A stretch of DNA of 64,000 bases from a virus, in the IMG/VR virus record IMGVR_UViG_3300023235_001889, positions 62,001 to 126,000 of that record; one strand, written 5' to 3'. Positions 13,992-36,750 of this stretch are shown in pieces. The notes under the pieces were generated by a model. It was not told where the DNA came from, did no database searches, and was given only the letters and a program-made list of their open reading frames with translations. Both the position numbers and the translations under genes were made by a program. Each line of letters begins with the position of its first letter. Positions within the stretch are counted from its first letter, which is position 1.

Positions 13992-14693
13992 ATGAAAAAA
14001 TCGAAATATAGTTCATTTGAAATAGATGAAATAAAAAAATGTATGGCTGATCCTATATATTTTATGACAACCTATGTTAAAATACAACATCCGGTTAAAG
14101 GACAAATAAATTTTAATGCAACGGAAGAACAATGTGAATATATAGATGCGTGCGATGATTATAGATTCGTTATAGCATCATTTGAACGACAAAAAGGTAA
14201 AACGACGGCGGGTGCGGCATATTTGTTGTGGAAAGTGTTGTTTCATCCAGATTTAACCATACTTGCTTGTGGGGCAAAGCATGAACATGCAAGGGAGATA
14301 TTGTGGAGGATTCGGTATTCATATGAATGCTTGCCAGAATTTCTTCAACCGAGTACAACAACATGGAATAAAGGTTGTATAGAATTTGAAAACGGGTCGC
14401 GAATAATAGGTAATGGGATAACTGCGAACACTGCTAAAGGGCTTACTGTATCATTATTATATATTGACGAGTTCGCATTTGTAGAACCAAAATCAGCAAA
14501 AGAATTTTGGTCATCTATTGCACCAACGTTATCCACTGGTGCAGATTGTATAATATCGTCAACCGGTAATGGCGAAAATGATAATATGTTTAAAAACATA
14601 TGGATGGATTCTATAACCAATGAAGTAAATGGTATAGGCATAAATGGATTTAAATCGGTAGGTAAATATACAGTGTTGAATCGAAGATGGTAA
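13992..14693 (+). CDS. ATPase-only paralogue of the large terminase (truncated gp17-like)
   Basis: 233 residues, collinear with the first 230 of the full gp17 that follows. Both begin with a K-C-x-x-D-P-x-Y-F pattern and continue with KIQHPxKG, a Walker A site (here Glu65-Arg-Gln-Lys-Gly-Lys-Thr-Thr72), the Walker B LLYIDEFAF and the SIAPTLSTGADCIISST segment. The coupling motif is STGN instead of STPN. It stops just after the NGFKS segment, so the rest of the ATPase domain and the nuclease domain are absent. Intact frame, RBS GAGG, and retained Walker residues argue against a fresh pseudogene. Its stop overlaps the gp17 start. Confidence 0.85.
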   Translation: MKKSKYSSFEIDEIKKCMADPIYFMTTYVKIQHPVKGQINFNATEEQCEYIDACDDYRFVIASFERQKGKTTAGAAYLLWKVLFHPDLTILACGAKHEHAREILWRIRYSYECLPEFLQPSTTTWNKGCIEFENGSRIIGNGITANTAKGLTVSLLYIDEFAFVEPKSAKEFWSSIAPTLSTGADCIISSTGNGENDNMFKNIWMDSITNEVNGIGINGFKSVGKYTVLNRRW

Positions 14694-18738: not shown

Positions 18739-19827
18739 ATGTCAAACAAACTACAAGAATTGCGTAAAAAACTACAAGAAAAAGAAAATAACCAAAATAA
18801 TTTTTCAGGCGACAACGCACTATATCCTTTTTGGAATATCCCATACAGCACAGATACCGAAATAACACCTGCATCGATTCGATTCTTACCGGATGGAAAT
18901 GAGGATAATGATTACTTTTGGGTTGAAGTTCAAAAAATCAAATTAACTTTCGCTGGCATCAAAGACGGTGACGAAAACAAAGAAGTTTTTGTTCAAGTTC
19001 CTTGTGTTGAGATGTGGGACGAAACATGTCCTATTCTTACTGCCATTAGACCGTTATTTAAAGGCGATAAAGAATCAGAAAAAACTGCTAGAAAATATTG
19101 GAAAAAGCGTTCTTATATTTTTCAAGGATTTGTTCGTGATAATCCATTAGAAGAAACCGATTCACCAGAAAATCCAATCCGTCGTTTTGCGATCAACACC
19201 AAGTTGTTTGGAAAAATAAAGGCTGGATTGATGGATGCAGATATGGAAGAAATGCCAGATGATTATATCGCTGGTAATGATTTCAAGATTGTCAGAACTA
19301 AGCAAACAACTGAAATCGGAACATTTGCCAACTATGATACTTCTTTCTATGCTAAAAGACCAAGTAGCCTAACGCCCGATGAAGCAGAAGCAATCGAAAC
19401 TCATAAATTGAGTAATCTTACCGATTTCATGCCAAAGAAGCCAGACGCAGAAACCATGTCCGCTATTGAAGAAATGTTTTCTGCATCAATGGATGGTGAA
19501 TTATATGACGCTGAACGTTGGGGTAAATTTTATCGCCCAGCCGGAGTAAAATATGAAAAACCTGCGGACGGAACTGTTGCAACTGAAAATTCAGAAACAA
19601 CTGGTAAACTTGAAACTCCTAAAATTCCAGTAGAAGAGACTCCTGTATCGACACCTACTGAAACCGTGGCTGAAACACCAATAGTTGAAACACCAACTGT
19701 TGTTGCCGAAGACACGCCTTCTGCGCCTGTTGTAGAAGAACCTGCCTCTGAAGAATCAGAAGCTAAGAAGCCGCCAAGAGATGTTTTGGCTGAAATCAAA
19801 GCTAGAGCAGAAGCACAAAAAGTCTAA
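18739..19827 (+). CDS. 32: Single-stranded DNA binding protein, gp32-like
   Basis: 362 residues. Coats single-stranded DNA during replication and recombination. The OB-fold core shows FWNIPYSTDTEITPASIRFLP, YWKKRSYIFQGFV, IRRFAINTKLFGKIKAG and DFKIVRTKQTTE. Only two Cys (CVEMWDETC) remain where T4 gp32 has four zinc ligands, so the zinc site may be incomplete. The C-terminal 90 residues are an extended Pro/Thr/Glu/Val repeat (ETPVSTPTETVAETP) that takes the place of the acidic tail, ending in a Lys/Arg-containing helix. Two promoters upstream and its own terminator downstream suggest early, abundant expression. Confidence 0.88.
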   Translation: MSNKLQELRKKLQEKENNQNNFSGDNALYPFWNIPYSTDTEITPASIRFLPDGNEDNDYFWVEVQKIKLTFAGIKDGDENKEVFVQVPCVEMWDETCPILTAIRPLFKGDKESEKTARKYWKKRSYIFQGFVRDNPLEETDSPENPIRRFAINTKLFGKIKAGLMDADMEEMPDDYIAGNDFKIVRTKQTTEIGTFANYDTSFYAKRPSSLTPDEAEAIETHKLSNLTDFMPKKPDAETMSAIEEMFSASMDGELYDAERWGKFYRPAGVKYEKPADGTVATENSETTGKLETPKIPVEETPVSTPTETVAETPIVETPTVVAEDTPSAPVVEEPASEESEAKKPPRDVLAEIKARAEAQKV

Positions 19828-19897: not shown

Positions 19898-20995
19898 ATG
19901 ACATTCGATCCTACCTCATTAATAAAAGGTATAACAAAAACACTAAACATTCCTGTTGGCTTTTCCGATCCAAAAATTTGGATTGATACAGGAAACTATG
20001 CATTAAATCGATTAATAAGTGGTGATTATTTTAAAGGTGTTCCACTTAGTAAAGTGACAATGCTTGCTGGTGAACAAAGCGCTGGTAAATCATTGATTGC
20101 TGCTAGTGTTATGAAAACAGCACAGAAACAACATGACGCATTCGTTATATTGTTAGATTCAGAAGGTGCGGGTGATGAACAATGGTTAATTAATGCCGGT
20201 GTTGATACCGATCCTAATAAATTTATTCGCGTTCCGGTATTCACTGTTACAACATGTACTGAAACGGTTGCTATGACAATTAAAGAATTATTAACTAGAT
20301 ATCCAGAAAAAGCAGTATTGATTGTTCTCGATTCGGTTGGTATGCTAGAAACTGAATCTGGTCAAGAAAAATTCTTGGCGGGTAAAACACCCGGCGACCA
20401 AGGTCAATTAGCTAAACAATTGAAAAAATTCATTAAAGGTTGCATTTTTGCAGCAGAACAAAAGAATATTGGATTTTTATGCACCAATCACACTTATGAT
20501 TCTATGGATATGTTTAATCCAGATGCTAAAATAACAGGTGGTAATGGTGTGATATATGCTAGTTCTATTGTTATTGCATTAAAGAAAAAGAAACTCAAAG
20601 ATACAAAAACCGAAAAAGTGTTAGAAAAATATAGAACTGAGACTATTACAGGTGTTCATGGTATTAATACAGAAGCATTGGTATATAAGTCAAGATTTAG
20701 TAAACCATTTGAAAAAACCACTATCACTATTCCTTGGACTACCGGCATTGATCCATATAGTGGATTGTTGCAGTTGTTTGAACAGGATGGATTAATCAAA
20801 CAACCAGGAACAAAAATGGTTTATACTGATAAAAAAGGCGTTGAGCATAAATACTTCCGAAAAGATATGCCAAATGAACTTCTTGATCAAATTATGAACG
20901 AAAATCCGGTTGTAATGTCTAAAGATGAAGAAATTGAAGCAGCGAGAAGAGAGTTGGCATTAGAACAAGAAGCTTTAAATGACGAGGATGATTAA
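19898..20995 (+). CDS. uvsX: UvsX recombinase (RecA family)
   Basis: 365 residues. Strand-exchange ATPase for recombination-dependent replication and repair. Walker A is GEQSAGKS at 58-65, Walker B is VLIVLDSVG, and the catalytic Glu lies in LLDSEGAGDE. The LCTNHTYDS and KITGGNGVIYASSIVIALKKK segments are typical of UvsX. Length is near T4 UvsX (391). RBS AAAGGAG is optimal. The stop overlaps the following ATG (TAATG). It is grouped with gp32, UvsY and UvsW, the presynaptic partners. Confidence 0.95.
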   Translation: MTFDPTSLIKGITKTLNIPVGFSDPKIWIDTGNYALNRLISGDYFKGVPLSKVTMLAGEQSAGKSLIAASVMKTAQKQHDAFVILLDSEGAGDEQWLINAGVDTDPNKFIRVPVFTVTTCTETVAMTIKELLTRYPEKAVLIVLDSVGMLETESGQEKFLAGKTPGDQGQLAKQLKKFIKGCIFAAEQKNIGFLCTNHTYDSMDMFNPDAKITGGNGVIYASSIVIALKKKKLKDTKTEKVLEKYRTETITGVHGINTEALVYKSRFSKPFEKTTITIPWTTGIDPYSGLLQLFEQDGLIKQPGTKMVYTDKKGVEHKYFRKDMPNELLDQIMNENPVVMSKDEEIEAARRELALEQEALNDEDD

Positions 20996-21237
20996 TGTCA
21001 AAAGTTGATTTAGAAGAAGTATTTTTTGATTTTTTTGATGCAGCGAAATCACACATATCAGACGCAGATCAATTATCATTATGTATAGATATGATAAGAA
21101 ATCTCGAAGATGGTGGGCACGAATTAGGTGTATTAAAAGGTCATGATGATATAGTAGATGAAGCACTTAGTGAAGTATTTCCAGATTTATATGATGATGA
21201 TGAAGAAGTTAATGTCGATGACGAGGGTGAATATTAA
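20995..21237 (+). CDS. Small acidic hypothetical protein
   Basis: 80 residues, very acidic, with a C-terminal Asp/Glu run (DDDEEVNVDDEGEY). Two predicted helices (EEVFFDFFDAAKSH and QLSLCIDMIRNLEDGG). It is held between uvsX and uvsY by TAATG overlaps on both sides, so co-translation is likely and a link to recombination is plausible. No family recognised. Confidence 0.75.
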   Translation: MSKVDLEEVFFDFFDAAKSHISDADQLSLCIDMIRNLEDGGHELGVLKGHDDIVDEALSEVFPDLYDDDEEVNVDDEGEY

Positions 21238-21704
21238 TGAATAAATGGTTTACTTCCATTGTGATAAATGAGGACGTTTCTAAAGTATCAGATGCAGTTC
21301 AATATTTTGAGCAAGAAATGGTGGAAGCTAAAGCAGAATGTGATATATCAGGAAGTCTAGAGCAAGCATCTGCTAGACTTCCTGGTTATTTTCAATATAG
21401 ATATAGCCAACTCCAAGAACTTGAAGGGATATTGGAATATCTCAATATAGAACTAAAAAAACTGCGTTCTATAAGTTTTAGAGAATATAAAGAAAAGTAT
21501 GATACTAGTTTGACTGCCTCTGCGATTGAAAAATATATCGATGGTGAGCCAGATGTTGTCGCATGGTCGAAAGAAATAAATAAAGTTGCACTGATTAGAA
21601 ATCAATATATTGGTGTTACTAAAAGTATGGATATGAAAAACTTTCAAATCGGTCACGTAACTAAACTAAGGGCAATGGGTATAGAAGACGCGTTTTTACA
21701 ATAA
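21237..21704 (+). CDS. uvsY: UvsY-like recombination mediator
   Basis: 155 residues (T4 UvsY has 137). Helps UvsX replace gp32 on single-stranded DNA. The N-terminal part is helical with an aromatic loop (LPGYFQYRYSQLQELEGIL). The C-terminal half follows the UvsY layout: LTASAIEKYIDGEPDVVAWSK, then INKVALIRNQYIGVTKSM, then FQIGHVTKLRAMG, matching the SLQYWGILLDFCSGALDAI and HIQDMRAFE regions of T4. Placement one short gene after uvsX supports the call, which is by eye. Confidence 0.72.
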   Translation: MNKWFTSIVINEDVSKVSDAVQYFEQEMVEAKAECDISGSLEQASARLPGYFQYRYSQLQELEGILEYLNIELKKLRSISFREYKEKYDTSLTASAIEKYIDGEPDVVAWSKEINKVALIRNQYIGVTKSMDMKNFQIGHVTKLRAMGIEDAFLQ

Positions 21705-22465: not shown

Positions 22466-23935
22466 ATGAGTAAACCCTGTACATTAAAAATACTTGATGA
22501 AGTAAATATAAAATTTGACGGATTGACTGGACCCGAAGGGGCTACTGTTCGTCGTAAAATGGTGAATGCACTTAAGTTTGAAGTTCCTGGCGCAAGATTC
22601 ATGCCAGCGGTTAAACTTGGTAGGTGGGACGGTAAAGAAAGTTTTTGCACCGTTGGTGGCTCAAGTTTCATAAATGCATTAGAAATATTAATTCCTATCG
22701 TTGAAGGTGCGGGATATGATATCGCGTTAGAGGATTATAGATCAGCAACAACATATGAATTTGATCCAATTGATGAGAATATGTTCAGTCATGTGAAATG
22801 GCCCGAAGGGCATCCGGCTGAAGGCACACCCATCGTGTTGCGTGATTATCAAGTAAATTGTATCAATGAATATTTAGATAATACACAATGCATTCAAGAA
22901 ATATCAACCGCTGCTGGTAAAACAATTATAACGGCGGGTTTGAGCCATATTGTCGAACGTGAAACCGGTGGAAGAACTGTTATTATCGTTCCAAATAAAT
23001 CACTAGTGGGTCAAACCGAAGAAGATTATTTAAACGTGGGTTTAGATGTTGGTGTATATTTCGGTGATCGTAAAGATATAGGTAAACAGCACACTATTTG
23101 CACATGGCAAAGTTTGGAAGTATTAGCAAAGAAGGGTTCGATAGATGGTTTAAATCTTATTGAAGCATTTTTGGATAATGTCAAGTGTGTCATAGTTGAC
23201 GAGTGTCATGCAGCAAAAGCAAAAGTTTTAAAGAAACTTCTAACTGAATCATTTAATCATGTTCCTATTCGATGGGGACTAACTGGAACCATACCAGAAG
23301 AAGAGCACCAACAACTCATTTTGACTTTTTGTATTGGTGATATGATAAATCAATTAACGGCAAAAGAACTTCAAGATATAGGCGCATTATCTATGTGTCA
23401 CATCAATATTGTCCAAACACAAGACAGTGGTGAATATAAAACATATCCAGAGGAATTAAAGTATTTGGTATCTGAACCAGCAAGGATGAAATTCATTGCT
23501 GGCTCAATCACACGTATTATAGAAACAGGTAATACGTTGATATTGGTTGACCGATTAAAGGCTGGTGAATTATTAGAAGAATTTATCGATGATTCAGTGT
23601 TTTTAAGTGGCGCTGACAAGACTGCTGTTAGAAAAGAAGAATTTGATAAAATAAATAAAGCAGATAATGGTGTAGTTATTGCTACTTATGGTATTGCATC
23701 TACGGGTATTAACATACCAAGAATATTTAACTTGGTTATGATTGAACCTGGAAAAAGTTATATTCGCGTGATACAATCCATTGGTAGAGGTATTCGTACA
23801 GCCAAAGATAAAGATTTTGTAGATGTTTGGGATTTTACAAGTTCATTGAAATTTTCTAAACGCCATCTTACAAAAAGAAAATCATATTATAAAAAAGTTA
23901 ATTATCCATTCACAGTAACAAAGGTAAAATATTAA
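22466..23935 (+). CDS. uvsW: UvsW helicase (superfamily 2)
   Basis: 489 residues (T4 UvsW 503). ATP-dependent helicase that unwinds branched DNA and R-loops, shifting replication to the recombination-dependent mode. An N-terminal accessory domain (VPGARFMPAVKLGRWDGKES) precedes the helicase core: Q-like RDYQ, Walker A STAAGKT, DECH box (VIVDECHAAKA), motif III LTGT, and in the second domain GVVIATYGIASTGINIP and QSIGRGIR (motif VI). It has its own strong promoter. The stop overlaps the next ATG. Confidence 0.95.
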   Translation: MSKPCTLKILDEVNIKFDGLTGPEGATVRRKMVNALKFEVPGARFMPAVKLGRWDGKESFCTVGGSSFINALEILIPIVEGAGYDIALEDYRSATTYEFDPIDENMFSHVKWPEGHPAEGTPIVLRDYQVNCINEYLDNTQCIQEISTAAGKTIITAGLSHIVERETGGRTVIIVPNKSLVGQTEEDYLNVGLDVGVYFGDRKDIGKQHTICTWQSLEVLAKKGSIDGLNLIEAFLDNVKCVIVDECHAAKAKVLKKLLTESFNHVPIRWGLTGTIPEEEHQQLILTFCIGDMINQLTAKELQDIGALSMCHINIVQTQDSGEYKTYPEELKYLVSEPARMKFIAGSITRIIETGNTLILVDRLKAGELLEEFIDDSVFLSGADKTAVRKEEFDKINKADNGVVIATYGIASTGINIPRIFNLVMIEPGKSYIRVIQSIGRGIRTAKDKDFVDVWDFTSSLKFSKRHLTKRKSYYKKVNYPFTVTKVKY

Positions 23936-24491: not shown

Positions 24492-25607
24492 TTAGGCAGA
24501 TTGTAGATCAGCTTCGCCTGTTACGGCTGCGGCTACATCTAATTTCCACGAATATGTATTACCTTCCCATGTTTTAACAACATGTTGTAATATAGTTTTT
24601 GCATGTTCTGTTCCAACACCTTCAATAGTGATCTGATCATCAATAGCATGACCAGTACCAGCAGTATCAATAGTCATGCCAGTAATGTCACCAGTACCAC
24701 CAACCGAAGCAACAGATAATGTACCATTTCCTCCAGTTACAGATACAACAGCACCAGTAGTATAACCAGTACCAGCAGTATCAATAGTAAGAGCATTAAT
24801 ACCCCAAGATACAGTTAATGTTGCACCAGAACCACCACCTGCGGTTGAAGTAGCGGATGGGTTTATAGGAAGAACGGTATATACTCCAGCAGCACCGTCA
24901 GCTACATCAAAAATACCTTGAGTAGCAGTTTCCATTGTCATATCAAACAGAATGTTGTCACCTGTTCCACTTAACTGTGAAGCGAATGAAACAACTTGGG
25001 TGTCACCAACAATACCAGATGTAGATGCTGTCAATACTGTAAATTCAGTTACATCACCGTTGCCATCAATTGCGTCAACACGAACAGTTGAACCATCATC
25101 CATTGTATATACATCGAGTACTACAGAAGCTGTTCCGCCACCTGCATCACCACCAGTAAATACACTGAAATCAGCTTCAGTTTGTCCAGCAACAGTGGAA
25201 ATATCATTAACAGTCCATCCCGCTGCAACTGAAAATGTACCGCCTGCATTTGTATCTATTGCATCGCCTACATTATATCCTGATCCGGTTGTTGTAACAA
25301 CAGCGGATGCAGCACTCAAATTAAGAATGCTAACTTCCGCAGTACCATCACCAGCAGATACGCCGAATACGGATACGTCCAGTTGTGCTTCTCCAACTGC
25401 TGAAGGATCAGCTAATTGTAGTTTTGCTCTACCAGTTCTAGTTGGCGTTGAACCACCAACCACACTAGCTAGAGTATAAGTTCTACTGCCCGGTTGGTCC
25501 ATGATCCAACATAGTTCTGTACCCGCGCCGATATCAGCTAGCACTTGAAGCTGATTATTAGATTGGCTAGTATTGCCAAAATTTTGTTTTCTTAAAGGTC
25601 TTCCCAT
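24492..25607 (-). CDS. Repeat-rich beta structural protein (minus strand)
   Basis: 371 residues. The N-terminus MGRPLRKQNFGNTS and low Cys/Lys, Gly/Thr/Val/Ser-rich composition suggest a virion decoration or fibre-type protein. Short motifs recur: SGYNVGDAIDTNAGGTFSVA, TIDTAGTGYTTGAVVSVTGG and TIDTAGTGHAIDDQITIEG, each a strand-turn unit. The C-terminal HAKTILQHVVKTWEGNTYSW is different and may be the assembly domain. RBS AGGAGAG is strong and a late octamer lies upstream on the same strand. It is one of few minus-strand genes and is isolated as a single-gene unit with its own terminator. Confidence 0.8.
   Translation of the reverse strand: MGRPLRKQNFGNTSQSNNQLQVLADIGAGTELCWIMDQPGSRTYTLASVVGGSTPTRTGRAKLQLADPSAVGEAQLDVSVFGVSAGDGTAEVSILNLSAASAVVTTTGSGYNVGDAIDTNAGGTFSVAAGWTVNDISTVAGQTEADFSVFTGGDAGGGTASVVLDVYTMDDGSTVRVDAIDGNGDVTEFTVLTASTSGIVGDTQVVSFASQLSGTGDNILFDMTMETATQGIFDVADGAAGVYTVLPINPSATSTAGGGSGATLTVSWGINALTIDTAGTGYTTGAVVSVTGGNGTLSVASVGGTGDITGMTIDTAGTGHAIDDQITIEGVGTEHAKTILQHVVKTWEGNTYSWKLDVAAAVTGEADLQSA
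24651..24788 (-). repeat. 24-base direct repeats inside structural gene
   Basis: The 24 bases at 24651-24674 recur exactly at 24765-24788. Both encode the TIDTAGTG unit of the beta-repeat protein. Exact identity suggests a recent duplication or conversion. Confidence 0.85.
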
Positions 25608-26239: not shown

Positions 26240-26269
26240 CTGATTATTATGGCTAAAGAAGGATTTATA

Positions 26270-26962
26270 ATGACAAATGTTGATAAATATAAGTGTAATT
26301 TTTGCGACAGAGAATTTGTTCGCGAAAGAACGCTTATTAGTCATATGTGCGAAACCAAACGCCGACATTTTAATAAAAGTGAACGATATGCGCAAATAGG
26401 GCTTGAAGCATGGAAGACATTTTACCGATTGACTGGTTCTGATGGTGGTAAAGATAAAACTTATAGTGATTTTATGAAATCACGTTATTATATAGCATTT
26501 ATCAAGTTCGGCAAGCACGTTTTGGCAACCAATATGGTAAATCAATCACAATTTATACCATTTGTTATTAAAAATCATATAAAACTCGATGATTGGTGCA
26601 AAGATTCAATATATGAAGAATATACAAGAACGGTATGTCGTCGTGAAGATGTTTATACCGCGATGGAACGTCAAGTAAAGATAATGACCGATTGGGCAGA
26701 TGAAAATGGTGAAGAATGGTTTGATTATTTCAAAAAAATACCACCCGGAACTGCATATAAGATGATTACATCGGGTAGACTAAGTCCGTGGTTGTTATTA
26801 AACAGTAATTTAGTAGAAACAGAGTTATTTCCCCGATTATCAGATGAACAATTTGTTCATATCGCAGATTTTATAAATTTTGACTACTGGCGTATTAAAA
26901 TGAAGAATGAAGAAGAAGATTTAGCGTTTGTAACAGAATTTATAAAGGAATGTGAACTATGA
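26270..26962 (+). CDS. C2H2-type zinc finger protein, replication region
   Basis: 230 residues from ATG 26270, chosen because AAAGAAGGA lies six bases upstream; an in-frame ATG at 26249 has a poor RBS. The N-terminus has a C2H2-like finger (YKCNFCDREF, then LISHMCETKRRHF). The remainder is a helical body with YYIAFIKFGKHVL, IKLDDWCKDSIYEEY, and MITSGRLSPWLLLNS. I recognise no enzyme motif. A finger plus helical body in this operon would suit a DNA-binding replication accessory such as a helicase loader, which is inference. Confidence 0.7.
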   Translation: MTNVDKYKCNFCDREFVRERTLISHMCETKRRHFNKSERYAQIGLEAWKTFYRLTGSDGGKDKTYSDFMKSRYYIAFIKFGKHVLATNMVNQSQFIPFVIKNHIKLDDWCKDSIYEEYTRTVCRREDVYTAMERQVKIMTDWADENGEEWFDYFKKIPPGTAYKMITSGRLSPWLLLNSNLVETELFPRLSDEQFVHIADFINFDYWRIKMKNEEEDLAFVTEFIKECEL

Positions 26963-27294
26963 TATCAGAAAAACAGATGAAAGCGGTTAGAAAAATAATG
27001 TATAGAGATGACGATGATGATAAATCAAAATCATCTAAAAAAAAGATAAATGAAATAAAAATAACAGGCTCATCAAGGGCTGTCATGATAGAAAGTGGTG
27101 GTGTTAAGCATCAATTACCTACAATGGCTTCTGTATCACAGTTAATTGAGCAATGTAGAACACAAAAAAATGCATTAACTGACGCACAATCAAATATTAA
27201 GAAATTAACTGAAACTATTAAGAAAATGGATTCGGCATTAAAAGAAGTTGAACGTGAATTGACCACAAAAGCGGATATGTATGATTCGAAATGA
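26959..27294 (+). CDS. Small coiled-coil hypothetical protein
   Basis: 111 residues. A Lys/Asp-rich N-terminal half (DDDDDKSKSSKKK) is followed by GSSRAVMIESGGVKHQLPTMASVSQLIEQC and then a long heptad-type helix to the end. It overlaps the zinc finger gene and the following gene by four bases each, so it is co-translated in this operon. Function unknown. Confidence 0.7.
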   Translation: MISEKQMKAVRKIMYRDDDDDKSKSSKKKINEIKITGSSRAVMIESGGVKHQLPTMASVSQLIEQCRTQKNALTDAQSNIKKLTETIKKMDSALKEVERELTTKADMYDSK

Positions 27295-27905
27295 AAATAA
27301 GAAATGCTGATACTGACATTGACATTGATTTTCAAGACCCTACAAAGGCGCTTGAAGGATTAAGCCACATTCGTGCTATATTAACGGATGATGATGGCAA
27401 TGTTAGACCGCATGTATCTGGTGTGTATTTTCAAGAGGTGCCATATGATCCAATAACGGGTTTATGTAGTTTAGAATCAAAAGATGCAGAAGCGCGTGGA
27501 TATTTTAAGTTAGATTTTCTTCATGTTCATCAATATGATGGAATAAAAAGCGAAGAGCATCTAACATCGTTGATGCATGCTGAACCAATTTGGGAAATGC
27601 TCGAAGATGAATTTTTTGTAAAGCAGTTATCACAAATACATAGGCATTTTGAAATAATTTCGTCGTATGCACCAAGAACGATAATGCAGTTGGCTATGGT
27701 GTTAGGGATGATACGTCCAGCAAAGAGACATTTGTTGGGTGAAGAATTTGATATAGTTGAAAAGACGATATGGGATAAGCCAGAAGAAGGCGACGAAGGT
27801 TATGAATTCAGAAAAAGTTTTTTTAAGAAACCTCACTCCGTCAGTTATGCATACGGAATTGTAGTTCAAATGAATTTATTAGTGGAGAATGGTGATATAA
27901 ATTAA
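27291..27905 (+). CDS. DnaE-like mini-palm protein (C-family polymerase motifs)
   Basis: 204 residues. Reading in order, it carries motifs that match the catalytic palm of bacterial DNA polymerase III alpha: TDIDIDF (Asp9, Asp11; cf. PDFDVDF with Asp401/Asp403 in E. coli DnaE), GYFKLDFL (Asp75; cf. KFDFLGL with Asp555), IMQLAMVLGMIRP (cf. IALVALYRPG) and FFKKPHSVSYAYGI (cf. FNKSHSAAYAL). DnaE itself exceeds 1,100 residues; here the PHP, most of the fingers, beta-binding and OB parts are missing. All three catalytic Asp are kept. It could be a tiny polymerase, a regulator or a structural relic. The stop overlaps the minus-strand gene's stop. Confidence 0.7.
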   Translation: MKIRNADTDIDIDFQDPTKALEGLSHIRAILTDDDGNVRPHVSGVYFQEVPYDPITGLCSLESKDAEARGYFKLDFLHVHQYDGIKSEEHLTSLMHAEPIWEMLEDEFFVKQLSQIHRHFEIISSYAPRTIMQLAMVLGMIRPAKRHLLGEEFDIVEKTIWDKPEEGDEGYEFRKSFFKKPHSVSYAYGIVVQMNLLVENGDIN

Positions 27906-28279
27906 TCCATTGGTCGAATAAGTTGTATTTTTTTTCTTTTTATTCGTTTCTGGAAATTCTCTTCAAGATTGATGAGTGGCCCCATGATATCCGTAACATC
28001 TTTCATTGGTAGACACTTTAATGTGCTTTTATATGGCTTCATTTCAATTCTTAGGAATATGTTAATAGGTATAAGGTGATTGCTTTCTTCCCACCATAGT
28101 TTACCAAGTTCTAAAAAGTGTTTTTTATCTTTTTCTTCTTTTAATTTGTTATAAGTGTAAAGACTGATTAACTTATTATCAGAATTTATTATAATACCAA
28201 TCAAATCTTCTTCTGCGAACGTCAAACATGTTAAATATGGATGTTTGTTGTTAAGTTTTTCAAATTCTTCTGGTGTCAT
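27902..28279 (-). CDS. Hypothetical protein, minus strand
   Basis: 125 residues, basic C-terminus (QKRIKRKKIQLIRPMD). The N-terminal half looks like a small beta barrel (YLTCLTFAEEDLIGIIINSD, KLISLYTYNKL), followed by FLELGKLWWEESNHLIPINIFLRIE. RBS AGGACT on the minus strand. Its stop overlaps the stop of the convergent DnaE-like gene by 4 bases. The family is not recognised. Confidence 0.7.
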   Translation of the reverse strand: MTPEEFEKLNNKHPYLTCLTFAEEDLIGIIINSDNKLISLYTYNKLKEEKDKKHFLELGKLWWEESNHLIPINIFLRIEMKPYKSTLKCLPMKDVTDIMGPLINLEENFQKRIKRKKIQLIRPMD

Positions 28280-28410: not shown

Positions 28411-29511
28411 ATGAAAGTACCATTTATTGATTTAGGTAGAGCATTTAAAAAACATCGCAAAGAATATATGGATATTGCCGAATCTGCATGGGAAAACGGA
28501 ATGATAGTTGGTGGTAAATATGTAGAAGAATTTGAGAATAATATATCTTCTATGTGTATGCGGAAATATGGTATAGCGGTTGCATCTTGCACTGATGCAT
28601 TATATTTTTCATTATTAGCCAACAATATCGGTGTGGGCGATGAAGTAATAGTGACCTCACATTCATTTGTGGCATCTGCGTCGTGTATATTGAAAGTAGG
28701 GGCAACACCAGTGTTTATGGATATTGAATTGGATACATTTATGATTGATCCAGATAACATCAAAGAATATATAACTGATCACACAAAGGCAATAATTGCT
28801 GTTCATTTGTATGGTCAGTCATTGCCTATACAAAAAATAGAAAACATTGCTGCTGCCCATTCATTAATTTTAATAGAAGATGCCGCCCAATCGTTGGGAG
28901 CAATGTATGATAATCGTCCAGTTGGTAGCATGGGTGATATTAGTTGCATTAGTTTTGATTCATTAAAGACGTTGGGATCGTTTGGTAACGGCGGAATGTT
29001 ATTAACTGATGATGATACCAGTGTTGATATATTAAAATCATTAGGAAATCATGGTAAAATACCTAATAATAACAACGAGAAACATCATTATGTTGGCGGA
29101 AGAAGTGTAATGACGAGCGCAGAAGCAGGTATGTTAAATCGCCGTTTGGTTGATTTCGGTTCAGATGTTATCGATAGAACCAGAATTGCGAACATATATA
29201 ATGATGGATTAAGCAATATAAAATCTATAATAACCCCGCAAAGTAATAAAGGATCACACACGTGGCACAAATATGTGATTATGGTTGAAGAATTGGAAGA
29301 ACTTAATTCATTTTTATTATTGAATGATATAGGAACTAGAACATGGCATACACCTTTATATAGAGAACCAATATTTGATCGTTTTATAAAATCAGTATGT
29401 CCAAATGCAGAGTTAATATCGACTCGAATATTGGGATTACCTATATTTGCGGAAATGACAAAAAACGAAGCCGAATATGTCGTTGAAATTATTTCCGAAT
29501 TTTATCATTAA
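28411..29511 (+). CDS. DegT/DnrJ/EryC1-family sugar aminotransferase
   Basis: 366 residues. PLP-dependent transaminase of nucleotide-linked keto sugars. The N-terminus VPFIDLGRAFKKHRKEY, the NGMIVGGKYVEEFE segment, ASCTDALYFSLLANNIG, GDEVIVTSHSFVASA, ILIEDAAQSLGA and the PLP lysine Lys186 in SFDSLKTLGSFGNGG are all present. It therefore looks active. Together with the convergent glycosyltransferase it could make and place an amino sugar on the host surface or virion. RBS AAAAGGA. No sugar dehydratase or nucleotidyltransferase for the sugar is visible in the window, so the substrate must come from the host or other phage genes. Confidence 0.88.
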   Translation: MKVPFIDLGRAFKKHRKEYMDIAESAWENGMIVGGKYVEEFENNISSMCMRKYGIAVASCTDALYFSLLANNIGVGDEVIVTSHSFVASASCILKVGATPVFMDIELDTFMIDPDNIKEYITDHTKAIIAVHLYGQSLPIQKIENIAAAHSLILIEDAAQSLGAMYDNRPVGSMGDISCISFDSLKTLGSFGNGGMLLTDDDTSVDILKSLGNHGKIPNNNNEKHHYVGGRSVMTSAEAGMLNRRLVDFGSDVIDRTRIANIYNDGLSNIKSIITPQSNKGSHTWHKYVIMVEELEELNSFLLLNDIGTRTWHTPLYREPIFDRFIKSVCPNAELISTRILGLPIFAEMTKNEAEYVVEIISEFYH

Positions 29512-30367
29512 GGCGACTTATTACATCATAATTGATGCTATTCCATGTTTGTTTTAGTGATTTGCTTTGCGATTCGGTAAAATCTTCTACGATTAATCCG
29601 TATTGTTCTAGTTGATTTTCTACTTCTATTTTTATATTATTATTGACGAATTGGCTTTCTAAATATGAATAATCAGAAATATCAGACAATCGCGTTGGAT
29701 TGTTTTTATTATTAAATCCATGCAATGCTCCAGCGCGTGCACCGGATATACTGTATTCACCATATGTTTCATCCATGCCTATGCTGCACCATATGAATAG
29801 TCTACTATGTGTAACGGGTTCACTCGCAGCCCAATCTTTATTGGTTTGTATATACATGTTGGTTCCGCTAGCTAATTTTGATGCTTCGCGAAATGCTGAT
29901 CTCCATGTTAATTTTGGTGATCTATTAAAGTTAGATGTTGTTGCACACTCTTCTTGTATTACCACACCTTCTGTTCCTGCATTTAATGTAAAATCGACAA
30001 CATTGGTATTTGTAAATTTTTGAACTAATGCTTTTGGAAACATATGTATTGATCCATATCCATATATTAATCCATTAACTGGATTCAATGATCTCCATAC
30101 GTGTACACGTTGGTCGCCGTTATAAAAATCTACGGCTTCAAATGAGAAATTCGGATTCAACACCGCGTCAGCATCCATTGTTATAAAATAATCAGTTTCG
30201 CATATATCAGCGGCTTTCTTCCAAGCGTTGGCTATTCCATCGACACCATGTACCCGTTTTGCGTTTGGTACTATTTTTGTTAATTTGTTAAATCCTTCAT
30301 CGGCATATTCTTCATCGTATGACATGTATATGAAGTCGACAGGTATATTATTATTGATTTTTACCAT
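29489..30367 (-). CDS. Glycosyltransferase-like protein (GT-A type)
   Basis: 292 residues. The N-terminal PVDFIYMSYDEEYADEGF and the acidic YFITMDADAVLNPNF (DxD motif for metal and nucleotide sugar) are typical of a GT-A fold. Later segments (VHVWRSLNPVNGLIYGYGSIHMFPKAL, HGFNNKNNPTRL) would form the acceptor side. It is convergent with the aminotransferase, with 3' ends overlapping by 23 bases, and has its own strong sigma70-like promoter. Acceptor unknown; modification of host surface glycan, of phage DNA or of virion protein are all possible. Confidence 0.7.
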   Translation of the reverse strand: MVKINNNIPVDFIYMSYDEEYADEGFNKLTKIVPNAKRVHGVDGIANAWKKAADICETDYFITMDADAVLNPNFSFEAVDFYNGDQRVHVWRSLNPVNGLIYGYGSIHMFPKALVQKFTNTNVVDFTLNAGTEGVVIQEECATTSNFNRSPKLTWRSAFREASKLASGTNMYIQTNKDWAASEPVTHSRLFIWCSIGMDETYGEYSISGARAGALHGFNNKNNPTRLSDISDYSYLESQFVNNNIKIEVENQLEQYGLIVEDFTESQSKSLKQTWNSINYDVISRLNDKIRK

Positions 30368-30393
30368 GATAATCCTTATAATGAATAATCTAT

Positions 30394-30423
30394 ATTATAA
30401 CATAAATATTAATATCAAGTCAA
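30394..30423 (-). promoter_or_regulatory. Sigma70-like promoter for glycosyltransferase
   Basis: Minus strand: TTGACT (complement of 30418-30423), 18-base spacer, perfect TATAAT (complement of 30394-30399), 26 bases before the start codon. Confidence 0.75.
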
Positions 30424-30490
30424 TAAGGATATTGATTAGAATAGTATCAGTTATGCTAAATAGTAGTAGAAATATTATGGAATAAGTGAA

Positions 30491-31333
30491 ATGACAGCAA
30501 TAAAAATCTATAAGATTCCGATTGTGGTTGATTTGACTGTATTGGATCATGGAGTAAAAAATAATAACATGTCTTTTAGGGATAGCGATTTTACCGTTTA
30601 TAAAAATGCTTACAATCCAATCGAGTTTATCGTTAGGGATAGTGATAGACGTCCGGTTGATGTAACAAATAAAGATTTAACGATGACTATTGTTGATTTT
30701 TATTCGGGGTTAGTTGTGATACAAAAGTCTGTTGAAATTCTTGACGCAGCAAAAGGGCGTATTAGATTTTCCATTGATCCATTGGATACGCCACAATGGA
30801 ATGTTGGAACATATAAGTATTCTATATTGATAACAAATGAAGACACAACCATGAATTTATTGGGTGTCGATCAAAACAACCAAGCGATAGGATATTTTGA
30901 ATTTGTAGACGGTATCCTACCAGAACCATCCGACAGTCAAAGCATATTAGGCGAGCAGTTCACTCCTGTTAATGTGGTACCACCAACCCTTGAACCAACT
31001 ATTTACGTTACTGGGGCGTTTCCTGGCGATGCTACGTTGGGTGATAATGATGGGTTACACACAGTTGTGGTATACTTAACTGATTATGCTGGAAAGTTTT
31101 GGATAGAGGCTAGTTTAGAGGATGATCCAACATCATTAGATAAGGATTGGTTCATTGTTAATTTGAGTTCGTTCAATGCATATCACGAATTTGGTAACAC
31201 TCCCAACCCAACAGATATATTCACTGGATTGGAAGCATTTAATTTCACCGGAAATATACAATGGGTGAGATTCAAACATCAACCCGATGATGACAATATT
31301 GGAACATTGGATAAGGTATTGTTTAGAAACTAA
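30491..31333 (+). CDS. Probable structural (baseplate or fibre-type) protein
   Basis: 280 residues, beta-rich without Cys. The N-terminal domain (MSFRDSDFTVYKNAYNPIEFIVRDSDRRPVD, LTMTIVDFYSGLVVIQKSVEI, RIRFSIDPLDTPQWNVGTYKYSI) looks like an immunoglobulin-like upper-baseplate or adhesin domain. The C-terminal half (IYVTGAFPGDATLGDN, WVRFKHQPDDDNIGTLDKVLFRN) is a second beta domain. Related-looking modules occur in marine phage structural proteins, by memory only. It is flanked by metabolic-type genes, which is unusual. Confidence 0.6.
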   Translation: MTAIKIYKIPIVVDLTVLDHGVKNNNMSFRDSDFTVYKNAYNPIEFIVRDSDRRPVDVTNKDLTMTIVDFYSGLVVIQKSVEILDAAKGRIRFSIDPLDTPQWNVGTYKYSILITNEDTTMNLLGVDQNNQAIGYFEFVDGILPEPSDSQSILGEQFTPVNVVPPTLEPTIYVTGAFPGDATLGDNDGLHTVVVYLTDYAGKFWIEASLEDDPTSLDKDWFIVNLSSFNAYHEFGNTPNPTDIFTGLEAFNFTGNIQWVRFKHQPDDDNIGTLDKVLFRN

Positions 31334-31335
31334 TA

Positions 31336-31364
31336 TTGAATCATTGATTAATATCTGATATAAT
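31336..31364 (+). promoter_or_regulatory. Sigma70-like promoter before asparagine-synthetase-like gene
   Basis: TTGAAT, 17-base spacer, perfect TATAAT (31359-31364), 27 bases before the ATG. Confidence 0.65.
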
Positions 31365-31391
31365 AATTGAAATATTATATTAGGTACATCC

Positions 31392-33197
31392 ATGACGCAG
31401 ACATTATACGCATATTATTCACCATTAAATATAAAAACTACCCACGTGCAATATAGTGATGAATTTATCACAATTGGATGTGATGATTCTATGATATATA
31501 CATCAGATACTTATGTATTAGCAATGATTGGCGAGTTTTTTAACTCAGATGAAATCGCAATAGAAATAGGCGTTGAATTGGAAGCGCATAGCGACGTAGA
31601 ATTACTTTCAAAATTAATACATATTAAAGGCATCGATGATGCTATAACTTTTCTTATAGGATGTTATTCTATAATTTATTATAATAAGCATTATAAATCG
31701 TGGTTATTGATAACCGATAAATTAGGCAGTCTATATCCGTATTATTACTGTAATTTAGATGATTTTATGATTTCAATTGATCACCATTTATTTAAAAATA
31801 TAAATTTGAATGTTAATATAAATTGGCTCAATAGATATATAAAAGGTGTATTCAAGCCCACAGTAGAAACTTTTATAAGTGGAGTATATAAACTTTTTGG
31901 CGGCATGATGTATTCATACCCAACTAACGAAAAGATACAATATTATGATTTATATGCTGATTTGGATGACGCGTTTTGTAACACAAATCATGATATATCG
32001 TCATCGTGCGCCGTTGACTATACTCATAATATTATAAAAAATACAATAATCAATACTAGTAGAAATTCTGATGCGCCCATATATGGTGTAGAAAATTCAT
32101 ATGGTGTTGATGGTTTAACTATCGTTGCTATATTGAATGACTTAAAGATAAAACCCAACACTTATACATCGTTTTTTCCACCACAAATAACAAAACCAAA
32201 TTTCAATGAAGAAAAAAACGCAGAAATTGTAGAATTTCGTATGGATATAATCAATAAAGCAAGAAATACATTTAATGCATATAACTATTTTGATGAAATT
32301 GTTTATGATGATGTTAATTCGTATATTGATCCGTTATGCTTTAAACACTGTTTGGGTATACATTGGGGAGGAAACGTGTTTTTTAAGGACCGGTTGGCTA
32401 CACAGGCAAAGATAGATGGCGTTACGCATATGTATGAGGGTGGATATGGTGATGCTGTATTTTTACATAGAACTAGATATATGATTGCTTATATGCTACA
32501 TCAATATAGTGATCGTTATATTAATATAAAAAAATATTTTACACCTGAAGGAACCGAGGCACAACGCATGGCTTCTATTCGGATAATAAGTGAAGATTTT
32601 TCTGATATATTAAACAAATATGATGTTTACAGTTATGAAGGATTTGATATAACGAGCAATTTTTTATATAAATTTTTTAACGAGTGTGATGGCGATTATA
32701 TTAAGTATATCATAGCTTCATCATTTATAGAAAATACAAATGCAACACCCGATAGATATGGTAGAATGTTGAGTGACATACCAAATATTGATGTGTTTAA
32801 GGATATAAGACTATGGAAATACATGCTTCAACTTCCTGAATATTTAATGTTTGATACTATGAAAAAATCACAAATACAATATGATTTGATAAAAAAATGT
32901 GTTGGTGATGGTGATTATGGCATTACGAAAACAGATGGATTTGGTTATGAAAAAATGACTTCTGGTTATGATCCAGCACATAAAGACAATTTTTATCGTG
33001 CGTCTATTCTTTATAAACATTCAGATAAAACCCGCAACGATTTTGATGCTGGATTGATTTTGATGAAAGATTTGGGAATAGATCAAGGATTGATTGAATA
33101 CTTTACAAAATTAGATGAAGAAAGTAAAGATTGTATGCATCATGAGCTATATCGTGTATTGATGTTATATTATTGGCACAACGAGTGGAAACAATGA
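31392..33197 (+). CDS. Asparagine-synthetase-like protein with altered catalytic motifs
   Basis: 601 residues. The N-terminal half follows a class II glutamine amidotransferase layout (GCYSIIYYNKHYKSWLLITD, GSLYPYYY), but there is no Cys after the initiator Met, so glutaminase activity is unlikely. The C-terminal half resembles the ATP-binding synthetase domain. The expected SGGxDS loop is replaced by Ser236-Tyr-Gly-Val-Asp-Gly241 (VENSYGVDGLTIVAIL). Later segments such as THMYEGGYGDAVFLHRTRY fit the family. Either a changed chemistry (amide or adenylate formation on another substrate) or a non-catalytic role is possible. It has its own promoter. Confidence 0.65.
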   Translation: MTQTLYAYYSPLNIKTTHVQYSDEFITIGCDDSMIYTSDTYVLAMIGEFFNSDEIAIEIGVELEAHSDVELLSKLIHIKGIDDAITFLIGCYSIIYYNKHYKSWLLITDKLGSLYPYYYCNLDDFMISIDHHLFKNINLNVNINWLNRYIKGVFKPTVETFISGVYKLFGGMMYSYPTNEKIQYYDLYADLDDAFCNTNHDISSSCAVDYTHNIIKNTIINTSRNSDAPIYGVENSYGVDGLTIVAILNDLKIKPNTYTSFFPPQITKPNFNEEKNAEIVEFRMDIINKARNTFNAYNYFDEIVYDDVNSYIDPLCFKHCLGIHWGGNVFFKDRLATQAKIDGVTHMYEGGYGDAVFLHRTRYMIAYMLHQYSDRYINIKKYFTPEGTEAQRMASIRIISEDFSDILNKYDVYSYEGFDITSNFLYKFFNECDGDYIKYIIASSFIENTNATPDRYGRMLSDIPNIDVFKDIRLWKYMLQLPEYLMFDTMKKSQIQYDLIKKCVGDGDYGITKTDGFGYEKMTSGYDPAHKDNFYRASILYKHSDKTRNDFDAGLILMKDLGIDQGLIEYFTKLDEESKDCMHHELYRVLMLYYWHNEWKQ

Positions 33198-33253: not shown

Positions 33254-34186
33254 ATGTTCATTTATAAAATAACTAATAAAATAACCGGAAAGATGTATAT
33301 TGGACTGGATTCTAACATCAATAAAACTAGTCGATGGTCGGCTCATAAAACTACTACTCGTAAATATATAAAAAATAGTGAAACCCCCAAGGGGTATTTG
33401 TATCGTGCTATGGTAAAATATGGAATAGATTGTTTTGATTATGAAATAATAGAAAATAATATCAATTCTAGAGTGACACTTGCAGAACGAGAAATATTCT
33501 ATATTCAAAAATATGATACATATAACGGCGATCACTATAATATGACCATTGGCGGTGATGGCGTAAGTGGGCATACACATGATGTTTCAGATGAGACAAA
33601 AATGAAACTAGCGCAAATAGTAAAAGATGAATGGAACAAATACACTAATGATGAATATAAAGAACGCTGTAATAATATTCAAAAAGGGATAACACAATAT
33701 TTAGATTCTATGACGCCCGAACAATATGATGAATATATCGATAAGTGCTCAAGAGCCGGTAAAATATCAAACAGCAAAAGGACATTACAAGAAAAACAAG
33801 AATATGCTAAACCACTACGTAAATGGGTCGATTCGTTATCACCAAATGAACGTAAAATATTAAATGATAAAATATCAGAAGGGCATATCACAAGGTTGGA
33901 TAATATGACTGATAAAGAAAAAATAGAAGATTCTAAACGTCGCTCAAGTAATGCCACAATATGGTGGGATGAAATGTCAGAAGGATATAGTAAAACCATA
34001 AGAAAAAAAATGAGCGATAAGAAGAAAAAGAAGTATATCATTACATCGCCAGATGGTATTATTTATGAGTTGACTGGTATATTTGATTTTTGTAAGAAGA
34101 ACAAGTTGCATCACGGTGCCATGTATGCTATATCTAATGGCAAGGCTAAAACATATAAGGGGTGGCATTGTAAAAAGGCTACATAA
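33254..34186 (+). CDS. GIY-YIG homing endonuclease (free-standing)
   Basis: 310 residues. The GIY-YIG domain is N-terminal: FIYKITNKITGKMYIG (Tyr4, Tyr15-Ile-Gly17), Arg27 in SRWSAHK and a Glu in LAEREIFYIQKY. The middle is a long basic helical linker with repeated Lys-rich units (RAGKISNSKRTLQEKQ, ILNDKISEGH). The C-terminus (YIITSPDGIIYELTGIFDFCKKNKL, AMYAISNGKAKTYKGWHCKK) is a NUMOD-type DNA-binding module. It stands directly upstream of the primase gene with 3 bases between, a typical site for a free-standing mobile endonuclease beside a conserved replication gene. Confidence 0.9.
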   Translation: MFIYKITNKITGKMYIGLDSNINKTSRWSAHKTTTRKYIKNSETPKGYLYRAMVKYGIDCFDYEIIENNINSRVTLAEREIFYIQKYDTYNGDHYNMTIGGDGVSGHTHDVSDETKMKLAQIVKDEWNKYTNDEYKERCNNIQKGITQYLDSMTPEQYDEYIDKCSRAGKISNSKRTLQEKQEYAKPLRKWVDSLSPNERKILNDKISEGHITRLDNMTDKEKIEDSKRRSSNATIWWDEMSEGYSKTIRKKMSDKKKKKYIITSPDGIIYELTGIFDFCKKNKLHHGAMYAISNGKAKTYKGWHCKKAT

Positions 34187-34189
34187 AAA

Positions 34190-35233
34190 ATGGCTATCGA
34201 TTTAACACAGATTGTTCTACAATATTTACCAACAGACAGAAAGACCAATGCAACTGGATTTTATGTTTGTTGTCCCATGTGTATGTCTATGGGTGAATCA
34301 AGACCGGATACAAAATATAGAGGAGGATTTACGATAGCGCCGGATGGGGGCTGGTTGTTTCATTGTTATAACTGTCATCATAAAAATCGATGGATATACA
34401 ATGGCAGAGTAGGTAAAAATTTGATGTATTTTTTAACATCAATTGGTATACCTTCAAAAATGATTCCTGTGCGTTTGCGGTTATTGCGCAACGATGAAAC
34501 ATTATCAGTAAAAATACACATCGAAGAAGAGGAAGTTCCAGATATTGCGATAAACTTTGATGAAGTTAAATTGCCATCTGGTTGTTCGTCATTTGATAGT
34601 TGGGTTGAAGATGATGAGCCGCCTTCGATGTTCATTGATGCATTCAGTTATATGGCATCACGCGGTGAAGCAGTGTTTAATGGGTCCACTTATTATTGGA
34701 CGGGTGATTCGAACTATGCAATCAATCAGCGTGTTATCATACCATTCTATCATCATGGTAAAGTAGTTGGATATACAGGCAGAGTATTCACTGGTAATAA
34801 AAAATTACGAAAATATTACAGCGAGCAACAGTCGGATTATATGTATAATCAAGATTTGCTTGAAGGTGATGCCGAGATTATATTTTTGGTTGAAGGAATA
34901 CTGGATGCAATATCTATTGGTGGCATCGGCGTGTTAGGAAATCATTTGACTGAAAAACAGGTTAATTTGTTAAAATGGTCCGGTAAGCGCATTATTTTAA
35001 TACCGGATAGAAATGATGCTGGGGGTAAATTATTCGATCAGGTGGTTTCCCTTGGGCATGAGGTGGCGTTAATATCAACAGAATGGGGAACGGGTATAGT
35101 AGATTGTGCAGAGGCGACTAAAAGATTTGGTATTCTTTATACATTGGAAACAATAATAAAAAATGCCACAAAAAATAAAATGAAATTGAAATTATTTAGG
35201 TCGGGAATGTTCCGTCTTAAATCGAATGGTTGA
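34190..35233 (+). CDS. 61: DNA primase, gp61-like
   Basis: 347 residues (T4 gp61 342). Makes RNA primers for lagging-strand synthesis. The N-terminal zinc ribbon has Cys27/Cys28, Cys31, His58/Cys59 and Cys62 (YVCCPMC and FHCYNC). The TOPRIM fold is visible as FLVEGILDAISIGG and IILIPDRNDAGGKLF (Glu and Asp-x-Asp equivalents). It lies immediately upstream of the helicase gene (12 bases), matching the gp61-gp41 primosome pair. Confidence 0.92.
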   Translation: MAIDLTQIVLQYLPTDRKTNATGFYVCCPMCMSMGESRPDTKYRGGFTIAPDGGWLFHCYNCHHKNRWIYNGRVGKNLMYFLTSIGIPSKMIPVRLRLLRNDETLSVKIHIEEEEVPDIAINFDEVKLPSGCSSFDSWVEDDEPPSMFIDAFSYMASRGEAVFNGSTYYWTGDSNYAINQRVIIPFYHHGKVVGYTGRVFTGNKKLRKYYSEQQSDYMYNQDLLEGDAEIIFLVEGILDAISIGGIGVLGNHLTEKQVNLLKWSGKRIILIPDRNDAGGKLFDQVVSLGHEVALISTEWGTGIVDCAEATKRFGILYTLETIIKNATKNKMKLKLFRSGMFRLKSNG

Positions 35234-35244
35234 GGAAAATATAA

Positions 35245-36750
35245 ATGAGTGCAGATTTTGGATTACTAAAGCAAAAATTATTAATAGAGTACATGTTAGC
35301 AGATGAAACGGTATTTCATCGGTGTCGAAATATATTAAAATCGTCGTATTTTGACCCAGAATTGGTTAATGTGGTCGAGTTATTGATTACACACACAGAT
35401 GAATATAAAGCAGTTCCAACAGTTCAACAAATCAAAGCAGAAACCGCAACTGAACTTGATTTAGTGCCAGAAATTCGTGAACAAGATCAAGCTTGGGCAA
35501 TGGATAATATTGAAAAATTTTGTCAGCAGGGTGCTATTATTGAAGCGGTATCAAAGGCGTTTGAATATATTGAATCTGGCGAGCACGGTACCATTGAAAC
35601 TATGATTCGCGAAGCGGTATTGGTTGGCTTACAGAAAGACCTTGGTTTGGATTATTTCACTAATCCAAGAGAACGATTAGAACGCCTTAAACTTAAAAAT
35701 CTTATTCCCACTGGTTGGCGCGATCTTGATAGAAAATTATTTGGCGGTTTGAACAGAGGTGAAATTACTATTTTTGCTGCTGGTTCTGGTGTTGGTAAAA
35801 GTTTGTTCTTACAGAATGCATGTTTAAATTGGGTCAGCGGTGTTCAATATACTTGGGGTGAAGGTGATAACAATCCTAAAATTATCCCACCATTAAATGT
35901 ATTGTATATTTCACTTGAATTAAGTCAAGATTTGACGTCTAAGCGCATAGATTCTATGGTTACTGGCATTAGTGCCCGAGAAATATTTGCAAAAATAGAT
36001 GAAGTTGAATTAAAGGTTACTACACAAGGTAAAAAAAGTGGTAGATTTACTATCAAATATTTGTCACAAGGTTCAAACACCAATGACATTAGAGCGTTAA
36101 TCAAAGAATATGAATTGGTGTATGGATGTGTGCCTGATTGTATAGCGGTAGATTATTTGGATGAAATGGGTCCAATTGCTAGCAATGTTAAAGATGATAA
36201 TTTATACATGAAAGATAAACATGTTACTGGTGATTTGCGCGACTTGGCAGTCGAGTTAGATGTTGTTTTAATCACCGCATCACAACTCAATCGATCTGCG
36301 GTTGATGAGTCTGAACAAAACCACGCGATGATTGGTGGTGGTATCAGTAAAATTCAACGCGCAGATAACGTTGTTTCTATATACCAAAGTGCGGCAATGA
36401 AAGAAGAGGGAACATTCATGTGTACTTTCTTAAAAACCCGTTCAAGTTCTGGTGTAGGTAGTAAAATATATTTAAGTTTCAATAATGATAGTATGAAAAT
36501 ATCCGATCAAGATGAAAATTATAATGCAGGTGGTGATACAACATCCATTGATGGTACAGGTCTTAGAAATAGCACTACAATGACAAACAATGATTTGATA
36601 AAATCAATAAAATCGGGCGCATCTAAGCCAGCGCCCACACCTTCTGCTCCTGTTCATGATCCAGAAACTGGTGAAATAAGTGAAACCGGCGAGATTAAAG
36701 AAAGTATGATGGAGCGATTAACAAGAATGAAGAAGGATGGCTTGTTGTAA
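35245..36750 (+). CDS. 41: Replicative DNA helicase, gp41-like (DnaB family)
   Basis: 501 residues (T4 gp41 475). Hexameric 5'-3' helicase of the replisome. The N-terminal helical domain is followed by a linker (LIPTGWRDLDRKLFGGLNRG), Walker A AAGSGVGKS, LNVLYISLELSQDLTSKRID, Walker B CIAVDYLDEMGP and the Arg/Gln region (VLITASQLNRSAV, KIQRADNVVSIYQS). The C-terminal tail is Pro/Ser/Glu-rich. Downstream partner of the primase gene. Confidence 0.95.
   Translation: MSADFGLLKQKLLIEYMLADETVFHRCRNILKSSYFDPELVNVVELLITHTDEYKAVPTVQQIKAETATELDLVPEIREQDQAWAMDNIEKFCQQGAIIEAVSKAFEYIESGEHGTIETMIREAVLVGLQKDLGLDYFTNPRERLERLKLKNLIPTGWRDLDRKLFGGLNRGEITIFAAGSGVGKSLFLQNACLNWVSGVQYTWGEGDNNPKIIPPLNVLYISLELSQDLTSKRIDSMVTGISAREIFAKIDEVELKVTTQGKKSGRFTIKYLSQGSNTNDIRALIKEYELVYGCVPDCIAVDYLDEMGPIASNVKDDNLYMKDKHVTGDLRDLAVELDVVLITASQLNRSAVDESEQNHAMIGGGISKIQRADNVVSIYQSAAMKEEGTFMCTFLKTRSSSGVGSKIYLSFNNDSMKISDQDENYNAGGDTTSIDGTGLRNSTTMTNNDLIKSIKSGASKPAPTPSAPVHDPETGEISETGEIKESMMERLTRMKKDGLL

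Follow-up and report, generated by a model that had tools for sequence, protein, structure and literature searches.

The DnaE-like gene and its motifs

A 64,000-nucleotide stretch of viral DNA (positions 62,001 to 126,000 of IMG/VR record IMGVR_UViG_3300023235_001889; hereafter the window, which lies in a record of 194,073 bases) carries a small gene related to bacterial DnaE, the alpha subunit of DNA polymerase III (Pol III). Its open reading frame (ORF) starts with ATG, encodes 204 residues and is confirmed as a real gene. An earlier reading made from the letters alone (the sequence-only reading) had recognized four DnaE motifs in this protein; all four are present, in the order they have in DnaE. 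The features are as follows, in window coordinates and with residue equivalents in Escherichia coli DnaE.

27291–27905, + strand: predicted C-terminal (metal-/template-binding) half of a split minimal DNA polymerase III alpha (phrog_11778, 204 residues)
27312–27332, + strand: TDIDIDF (residues 8–14), equivalent to D401/D403/D405
27411–27422, + strand: HVSG, equivalent to H511–G514, with H and G invariant
27507–27521, + strand: KLDFL (residues 73–77), equivalent to K553/D555 (third catalytic Asp), with K and D invariant
27711–27725, + strand: IRPAK (IRP is residues 141–143, 27711–27719), equivalent to the finger motif R639-P640
27822–27857, + strand: FKKPHSVSYAYG (residues 178–189), equivalent to F756-N757-K-S-H760...Y764

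Across 100 relatives, the equivalents of D403, D405, H511, G514, K553, D555, R639, P640, H760, and Y764 are identical in every copy. The D401 equivalent (D9) is kept in 99, with the exception traced to the start chosen for one copy (L011), and D11 and D13 are kept in all 100. The R, P, and following K of IRPAK are invariant, as are the H and Y of FKKPHSVSYAYG, in which K or R occupies the position of N757. In the AlphaFold2 model, strands are predicted at residues 10–14 (TDIDIDF) and 73–78 (KLDFL).

The protein is a true relative of the C-family polymerases. It matches phrog_11778, annotated as "DNA polymerase," over the full length of the profile (E = 3e-62), and a profile of 60 relatives aligns collinearly with DnaE of Mycobacterium tuberculosis at residues 413–424 (the Asp motif, where MPDIDIDF is also matched), 567–663 (the third-Asp/finger region), and 773–788 (the FNKSHAAGY motif). 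Profile–profile comparison and structure prediction, both suggested in the sequence-only reading, point the same way. In profile–profile comparison, hhalign against seven DnaE proteins gave a probability of 97.1%. The structure predicted with AlphaFold2 is confident (predicted local distance difference test score, pLDDT, of 92.0), and all of its confident structural matches are to DnaE. Foldseek ranks 1–7 in the PDB are all Pol III alpha, with probabilities of 0.99–1.00, and the next match falls to 0.03. We rely on the identity and probability of these matches and not on their geometry; full-length superpositions have root-mean-square deviations of 7–19 Å because the targets are multidomain. 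Searches with the single sequence gave no Pfam match and no DnaE among PDB entries, and the motif reading thus got further than ordinary single-sequence searches. Identity as an arginine succinyltransferase (NCBIfam E = 3e-4; PDB entry 1yle, E = 0.27) was considered and rejected, as the match spans 59 residues, falls well short of the cut-off, and is gone once the family profile is used.

Relatives of the protein occur in 90 phage records and in at least 593 confirmed IMG/VR stretches. As to a cellular origin, among the matches listed only two small contigs of metagenome-assembled genomes, both from the genome collection, carry a relative, and these are probably phage contamination. These two contigs (L217 and L218) are binned to archaeal genomes (Natrialbaceae and Pacearchaeota) and carry the phage gene; they are probably misbinned phage contigs.

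The sequence-only reading had also held that the other DnaE domains are missing, and this is borne out: the chain comprises a reduced palm and part of the fingers. No Pfam match to PHP, thumb, HhH, clamp-binding, or OB domains was found in the 204 residues, and the spacing between the aligned motifs leaves no room for them.

The partner half and the seam between the chains

The GRGS nucleotide-binding motif of DnaE is not found in the 204-residue chain. When the genomes of 14 relatives were searched with PF07733, a second small ORF scored above the curated cut-off in every one of them (14/14), while members of the 204-residue family were not picked up. The second ORF encodes ∼150–200 residues, matches profile positions ∼16–96, and belongs to phrog_11127 (E = 9e-51 over the full-length profile for a partner on a viral contig). 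Like the window's protein, it is related to DnaE by hhalign (96.1%) and by its predicted structure (pLDDT of 92.6), for which all confident matches in the PDB, ranked first, are chains of Pol III alpha. Its C-terminal end, with the consensus WGVGRGSSVASYxLxLIGxHxxDSxxYxLDxxEFL(K), corresponds to residues ∼321–393 of E. coli DnaE, and all 94 copies have an identical GRGS.

The ends of the two chains meet at nearly the same place. The partner terminates two residues past the F391 equivalent in 80 of 94 copies, and the metal-binding half begins no more than two residues ahead of the D401 equivalent in 64 of 100 copies, where start positions follow the start choice of the script and one of the 64 (L011) begins past D401 owing to that choice. 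The seam therefore falls between DnaE residues ∼393 and ∼399, beside the catalytic Asp motif. As read from the aligned sequences, the break in the palm lies no more than about six residues from the catalytic Asp motif and leaves GRGS and the metal ligands on different chains. The 204-residue half retains the three catalytic Asp, the equivalents of K553 and H511, and a shortened version of the finger region; in all complete genomes of relatives that were searched, the GRGS portion of this palm is a chain of its own with ∼170 residues.

The two halves travel together, yet apart in the genome. Each of the 14 relatives' genomes, which were brought in by the 204-residue half, contains both. Of another 15 contigs chosen for one or the other half, 12 contain both, among them every one of the 11 that reach 220 kb or more; the remaining 3 are pieces of 156–195 kb. 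Among 200 fetched loci, none showed the halves fused or adjacent, and in no case were the two less than 10 kb apart. A 310-residue open frame at one partner copy (L128) was considered as a fusion and rejected as upstream read-through. In phage RaK2, the metal-binding half is ORF124 and its partner lies at 148852–149367; in phage 121Q, the corresponding proteins are gp16 and gp56. The same 14 genomes all encode a T4-like family B polymerase, as the sequence-only reading had anticipated for phages of this type, and have no family A polymerase above the cut-off.

Both halves are under similar constraint. The ratio of nonsynonymous to synonymous substitution rates (dN/dS) is 0.114 for the 204-residue half (65 pairs) and 0.113 for the partner (17 pairs). 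Taken with the conservation of the catalytic residues, these values argue, at the level of sequence, for catalysis and against a decoy. Because those residues are essentially invariant and dN/dS is ∼0.11, neither a decoy nor a decaying fragment is likely.

Gene neighborhood and the probable function of the pair

The gene lies in a T4-type cluster of replication and recombination genes, with the following members.

14687–16267: terminase
18739–19827: SSB
19898–20995: UvsX
21237–21704: UvsY
22466–23935, + strand: UvsW-type DNA helicase
26249–26962, + strand: C2H2-zinc-finger-like protein (phrog_11058), kept as a neighbor in 96 of 101 loci
26959–27294, + strand: small coiled-coil-like protein directly upstream of the polymerase half, overlapping it by 4 bases (ATGA)
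27902–28279, − strand: convergently oriented phrog_11637 protein, kept as a neighbor in 96 of 101 loci
34190–35233, + strand: DNA primase
35245–36750, + strand: DnaB-like replicative helicase

The order is terminase, SSB, UvsX, UvsY, UvsW, small proteins, the DnaE-like gene, an insertion, primase, and DnaB-like helicase, and this synteny of replication and recombination genes around the DnaE-like gene is conserved in relatives, some of which also have a DnaQ-like exonuclease beside UvsW. Translation of the coiled-coil-like gene and the polymerase half is likely coupled; in relatives, the upstream position is usually filled, but its sequence diverges. The flanking phrog_11058 and phrog_11637 proteins are possible accessory or regulatory partners, and the C2H2-like protein is a candidate accessory subunit.

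Between the polymerase half and primase, the insertion (28411–33197) comprises genes for an aminotransferase of the DegT type, a glycosyltransferase of family 2 (− strand), a structural-type protein, and a protein with a glutamine-amidotransferase domain; in the majority of relatives no more than one or two genes occupy this interval. A GIY-YIG-type homing endonuclease gene (33254–34186) is located immediately 5′ of the primase gene. Within the replication cluster, a gene on the − strand (24492–25607) encodes a 371-residue Gly/Thr/Ala-rich repetitive protein, which is a neighbor of the polymerase half at just 1 of 101 loci.

We favor the explanation, with a probability of about 0.75, that the 204-residue protein contributes the C-terminal half to a minimal C-family DNA polymerase built from two chains, which assemble noncovalently into a second polymerase linked to repair or recombination. 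Binding of the two chains would rebuild a single nucleotidyltransferase active site on the C-family palm. The template and primer could be held by neighbors such as the C2H2 protein, or by phage SSB or a clamp, in place of the missing DNA grip. The pair would act, probably over short patches, beside the family B replicase, and the DnaQ-like exonuclease of some relatives could proofread for it. Because the gene sits in a cluster of SSB, UvsX, UvsY, UvsW, primase, and helicase genes, repair or recombination-dependent synthesis is its most likely predicted role, and the repair function suggested in the sequence-only reading is plausible.

Several observations weigh against this explanation. The DnaE invariant R390 is replaced by E in 93 of 94 partners, and in the 204-residue half N757 is replaced by K or R; because of these changes the chemistry may differ. 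The pair also lacks the DnaE thumb, YQEQ segment, and R709, and its grip on DNA and deoxynucleoside triphosphates may be weak as a result. Hence, either the chemistry or the accessory needs of the pair may differ from those of DnaE. The distances between copies of the two halves are correlated in a mirror-tree comparison (r = 0.90), but other gene pairs of the cluster reach 0.73–0.93, and the correlation vanishes with UvsW held constant, in a small sample. Lastly, the GRGS partner was not found in the window's own record. Since a family B polymerase was not found in that record either, we read the missing partner as a sign of incompleteness, and the record is probably incomplete.

The same losses and charge changes lend some weight to an unlikely alternative, that the pair is no DNA polymerase but another nucleotidyltransferase, such as a terminal or an RNA or protein nucleotidyl-adding enzyme, with a pol-beta-type palm and another acceptor. 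All DNA-binding C-terminal domains have gone along with the thumb and the YQEQ/R709 segment, and the substitutions of R390 and N757 are invariant changes of charge in the active site. However, R639-P640 and F-K-K-x-H...Y, which belong to the fingers in DnaE, are still invariant, and the gene is located in a replication cluster. It is very improbable that the pair is instead a structural or scaffolding complex of a replisome or recombination machine, in which catalytic residues hold metal for stability only. Loss of DNA-grip elements and conserved linkage to small neighbor proteins are compatible with a scaffold, but the catalytic Asp and Lys and the GRGS nucleotide-phosphate loop are fully conserved over both chains.

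Two functions raised in the sequence-only reading fare even worse. A decoy or inhibitor that competes with host Pol III by titrating clamp, tau, or epsilon would fit homology to the host alpha subunit and a phage origin; we consider it a slim prospect, as the parts of alpha that bind the beta clamp, tau, and (through PHP) epsilon are absent and the catalytic residues do not vary among phages whose hosts are very different. Least probable of all is that the 204-residue protein works alone as a minimal polymerase: a single chain with all three Asp is confidently predicted to fold, but this chain has just one half of a catalytic core; the GRGS motif resides in a second conserved protein present in all 14 genomes and all 11 of the larger contigs.

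Origin of the split and relation to known polymerases

Two unrelated phages offer a lead on how a two-chain polymerase could have arisen, as each has an ordinary-looking DnaE that is broken up close to the seam described above. In Alicyclobacillus phage KKP_3916 (L210, 2897–8089), DnaE is in pieces broken by endonuclease-like ORFs, one of which lies between RFANKGR and the next polymerase piece, at or beside the catalytic seam. In Bacteroides phage BS-TP1 (L204, 1636–3369; L214), two DnaE genes are separated by a Dda-like helicase gene; the N-terminal half ends in FERFLLPERAG followed by an intein-like tail, and the C-terminal half resumes at SLPDVDNDF. Intein-like extra sequence is thus present on both broken ends at the seam, with splice residues that do not look canonical. 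The catalytic seam may be a hotspot for mobile elements, and this lead would therefore favor fission, rather than an ancestral minimal form, as the origin. A fuller account, which we put forward tentatively and consider less likely than not to be right, is that large T4-like phages have as their second polymerase a working enzyme of ∼375 residues in which two chains from unlinked genes, never ligated to each other, complete one active site in trans, and that it arose by fission of DnaE at a mobile-element hotspot beside the catalytic Asp and is not an ancestral relic.

Relative to bacterial DnaE (PF07733, PF17657), the phage pair shares the palm Asp, Lys, and His, the RP and KxH motifs of the fingers, and the fold. 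Conversely, bacterial DnaE is one chain of ∼1,160 residues, whereas the pair has ∼375 in two chains, from which the PHP, thumb, HhH, clamp-binding, OB, and tau-binding parts are absent. In cyanobacteria, a C-family polymerase is likewise encoded by two genes, the halves of which are ligated by an intein (trans-spliced) into a full-length enzyme. The cyanobacterial DnaE is split at another site, and the phage halves are without intein sequence at either end. If the phage halves are active, they would be among the smallest replicative-type (C-family) polymerases, with an active site shared by separately encoded chains, and would be useful for learning which parts of DnaE the chemistry needs and how split polymerases evolve.

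The closest known system is the minimal Pol III alpha of group 2.2 jumbo phages, which consists of two proteins encoded by distant genes (Iyer et al. 2021, Viruses 13:63, PMC7824862). A miniature C-family palm in a T4-type phage, which the sequence-only reading had called unexpected, had therefore already been described. Its authors noted that the split Pol III occurs beside a family B polymerase, perhaps serving one strand or repair, and viewed it as a model of the ancestral enzyme (PMC7824862). Single halves had been seen earlier still, as CBB_328, described as truncated (PMC5259590), and as gp316 of Atu_ph07 (PMC6102473). No experimental study of the split minimal Pol III was found in the literature searched. 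The phrog families label both halves "DNA polymerase" and list them separately (phrog_11778 and phrog_11127), and the label is silent on their being two halves of one palm; we infer the identity of these families with the two units of Iyer et al. from the description in that paper (PMC7824862).

The window agrees with that system in several respects. Atu_ph07, placed in group 2.2 (PMC7824862), carries the family of the 204-residue protein, and in both cases a stand-alone, small C-terminal metal- and template-binding unit is homologous to DnaE. The window also has the T4-type UvsW helicase, T4-type SSB, and DnaB-type helicase of group 2.2 phages (PMC7824862). It differs in that neither the partner nor a family B polymerase was found in its 194-kb record, which is probably incomplete. 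Why T4-like jumbo phages retain a polymerase of bacterial type alongside the family B replicase was asked in 2021, and the findings bear on this question. The protein of the window is a fresh example of the already described split Pol III, and to that description we add support from individual residues, co-occurrence, and structure.
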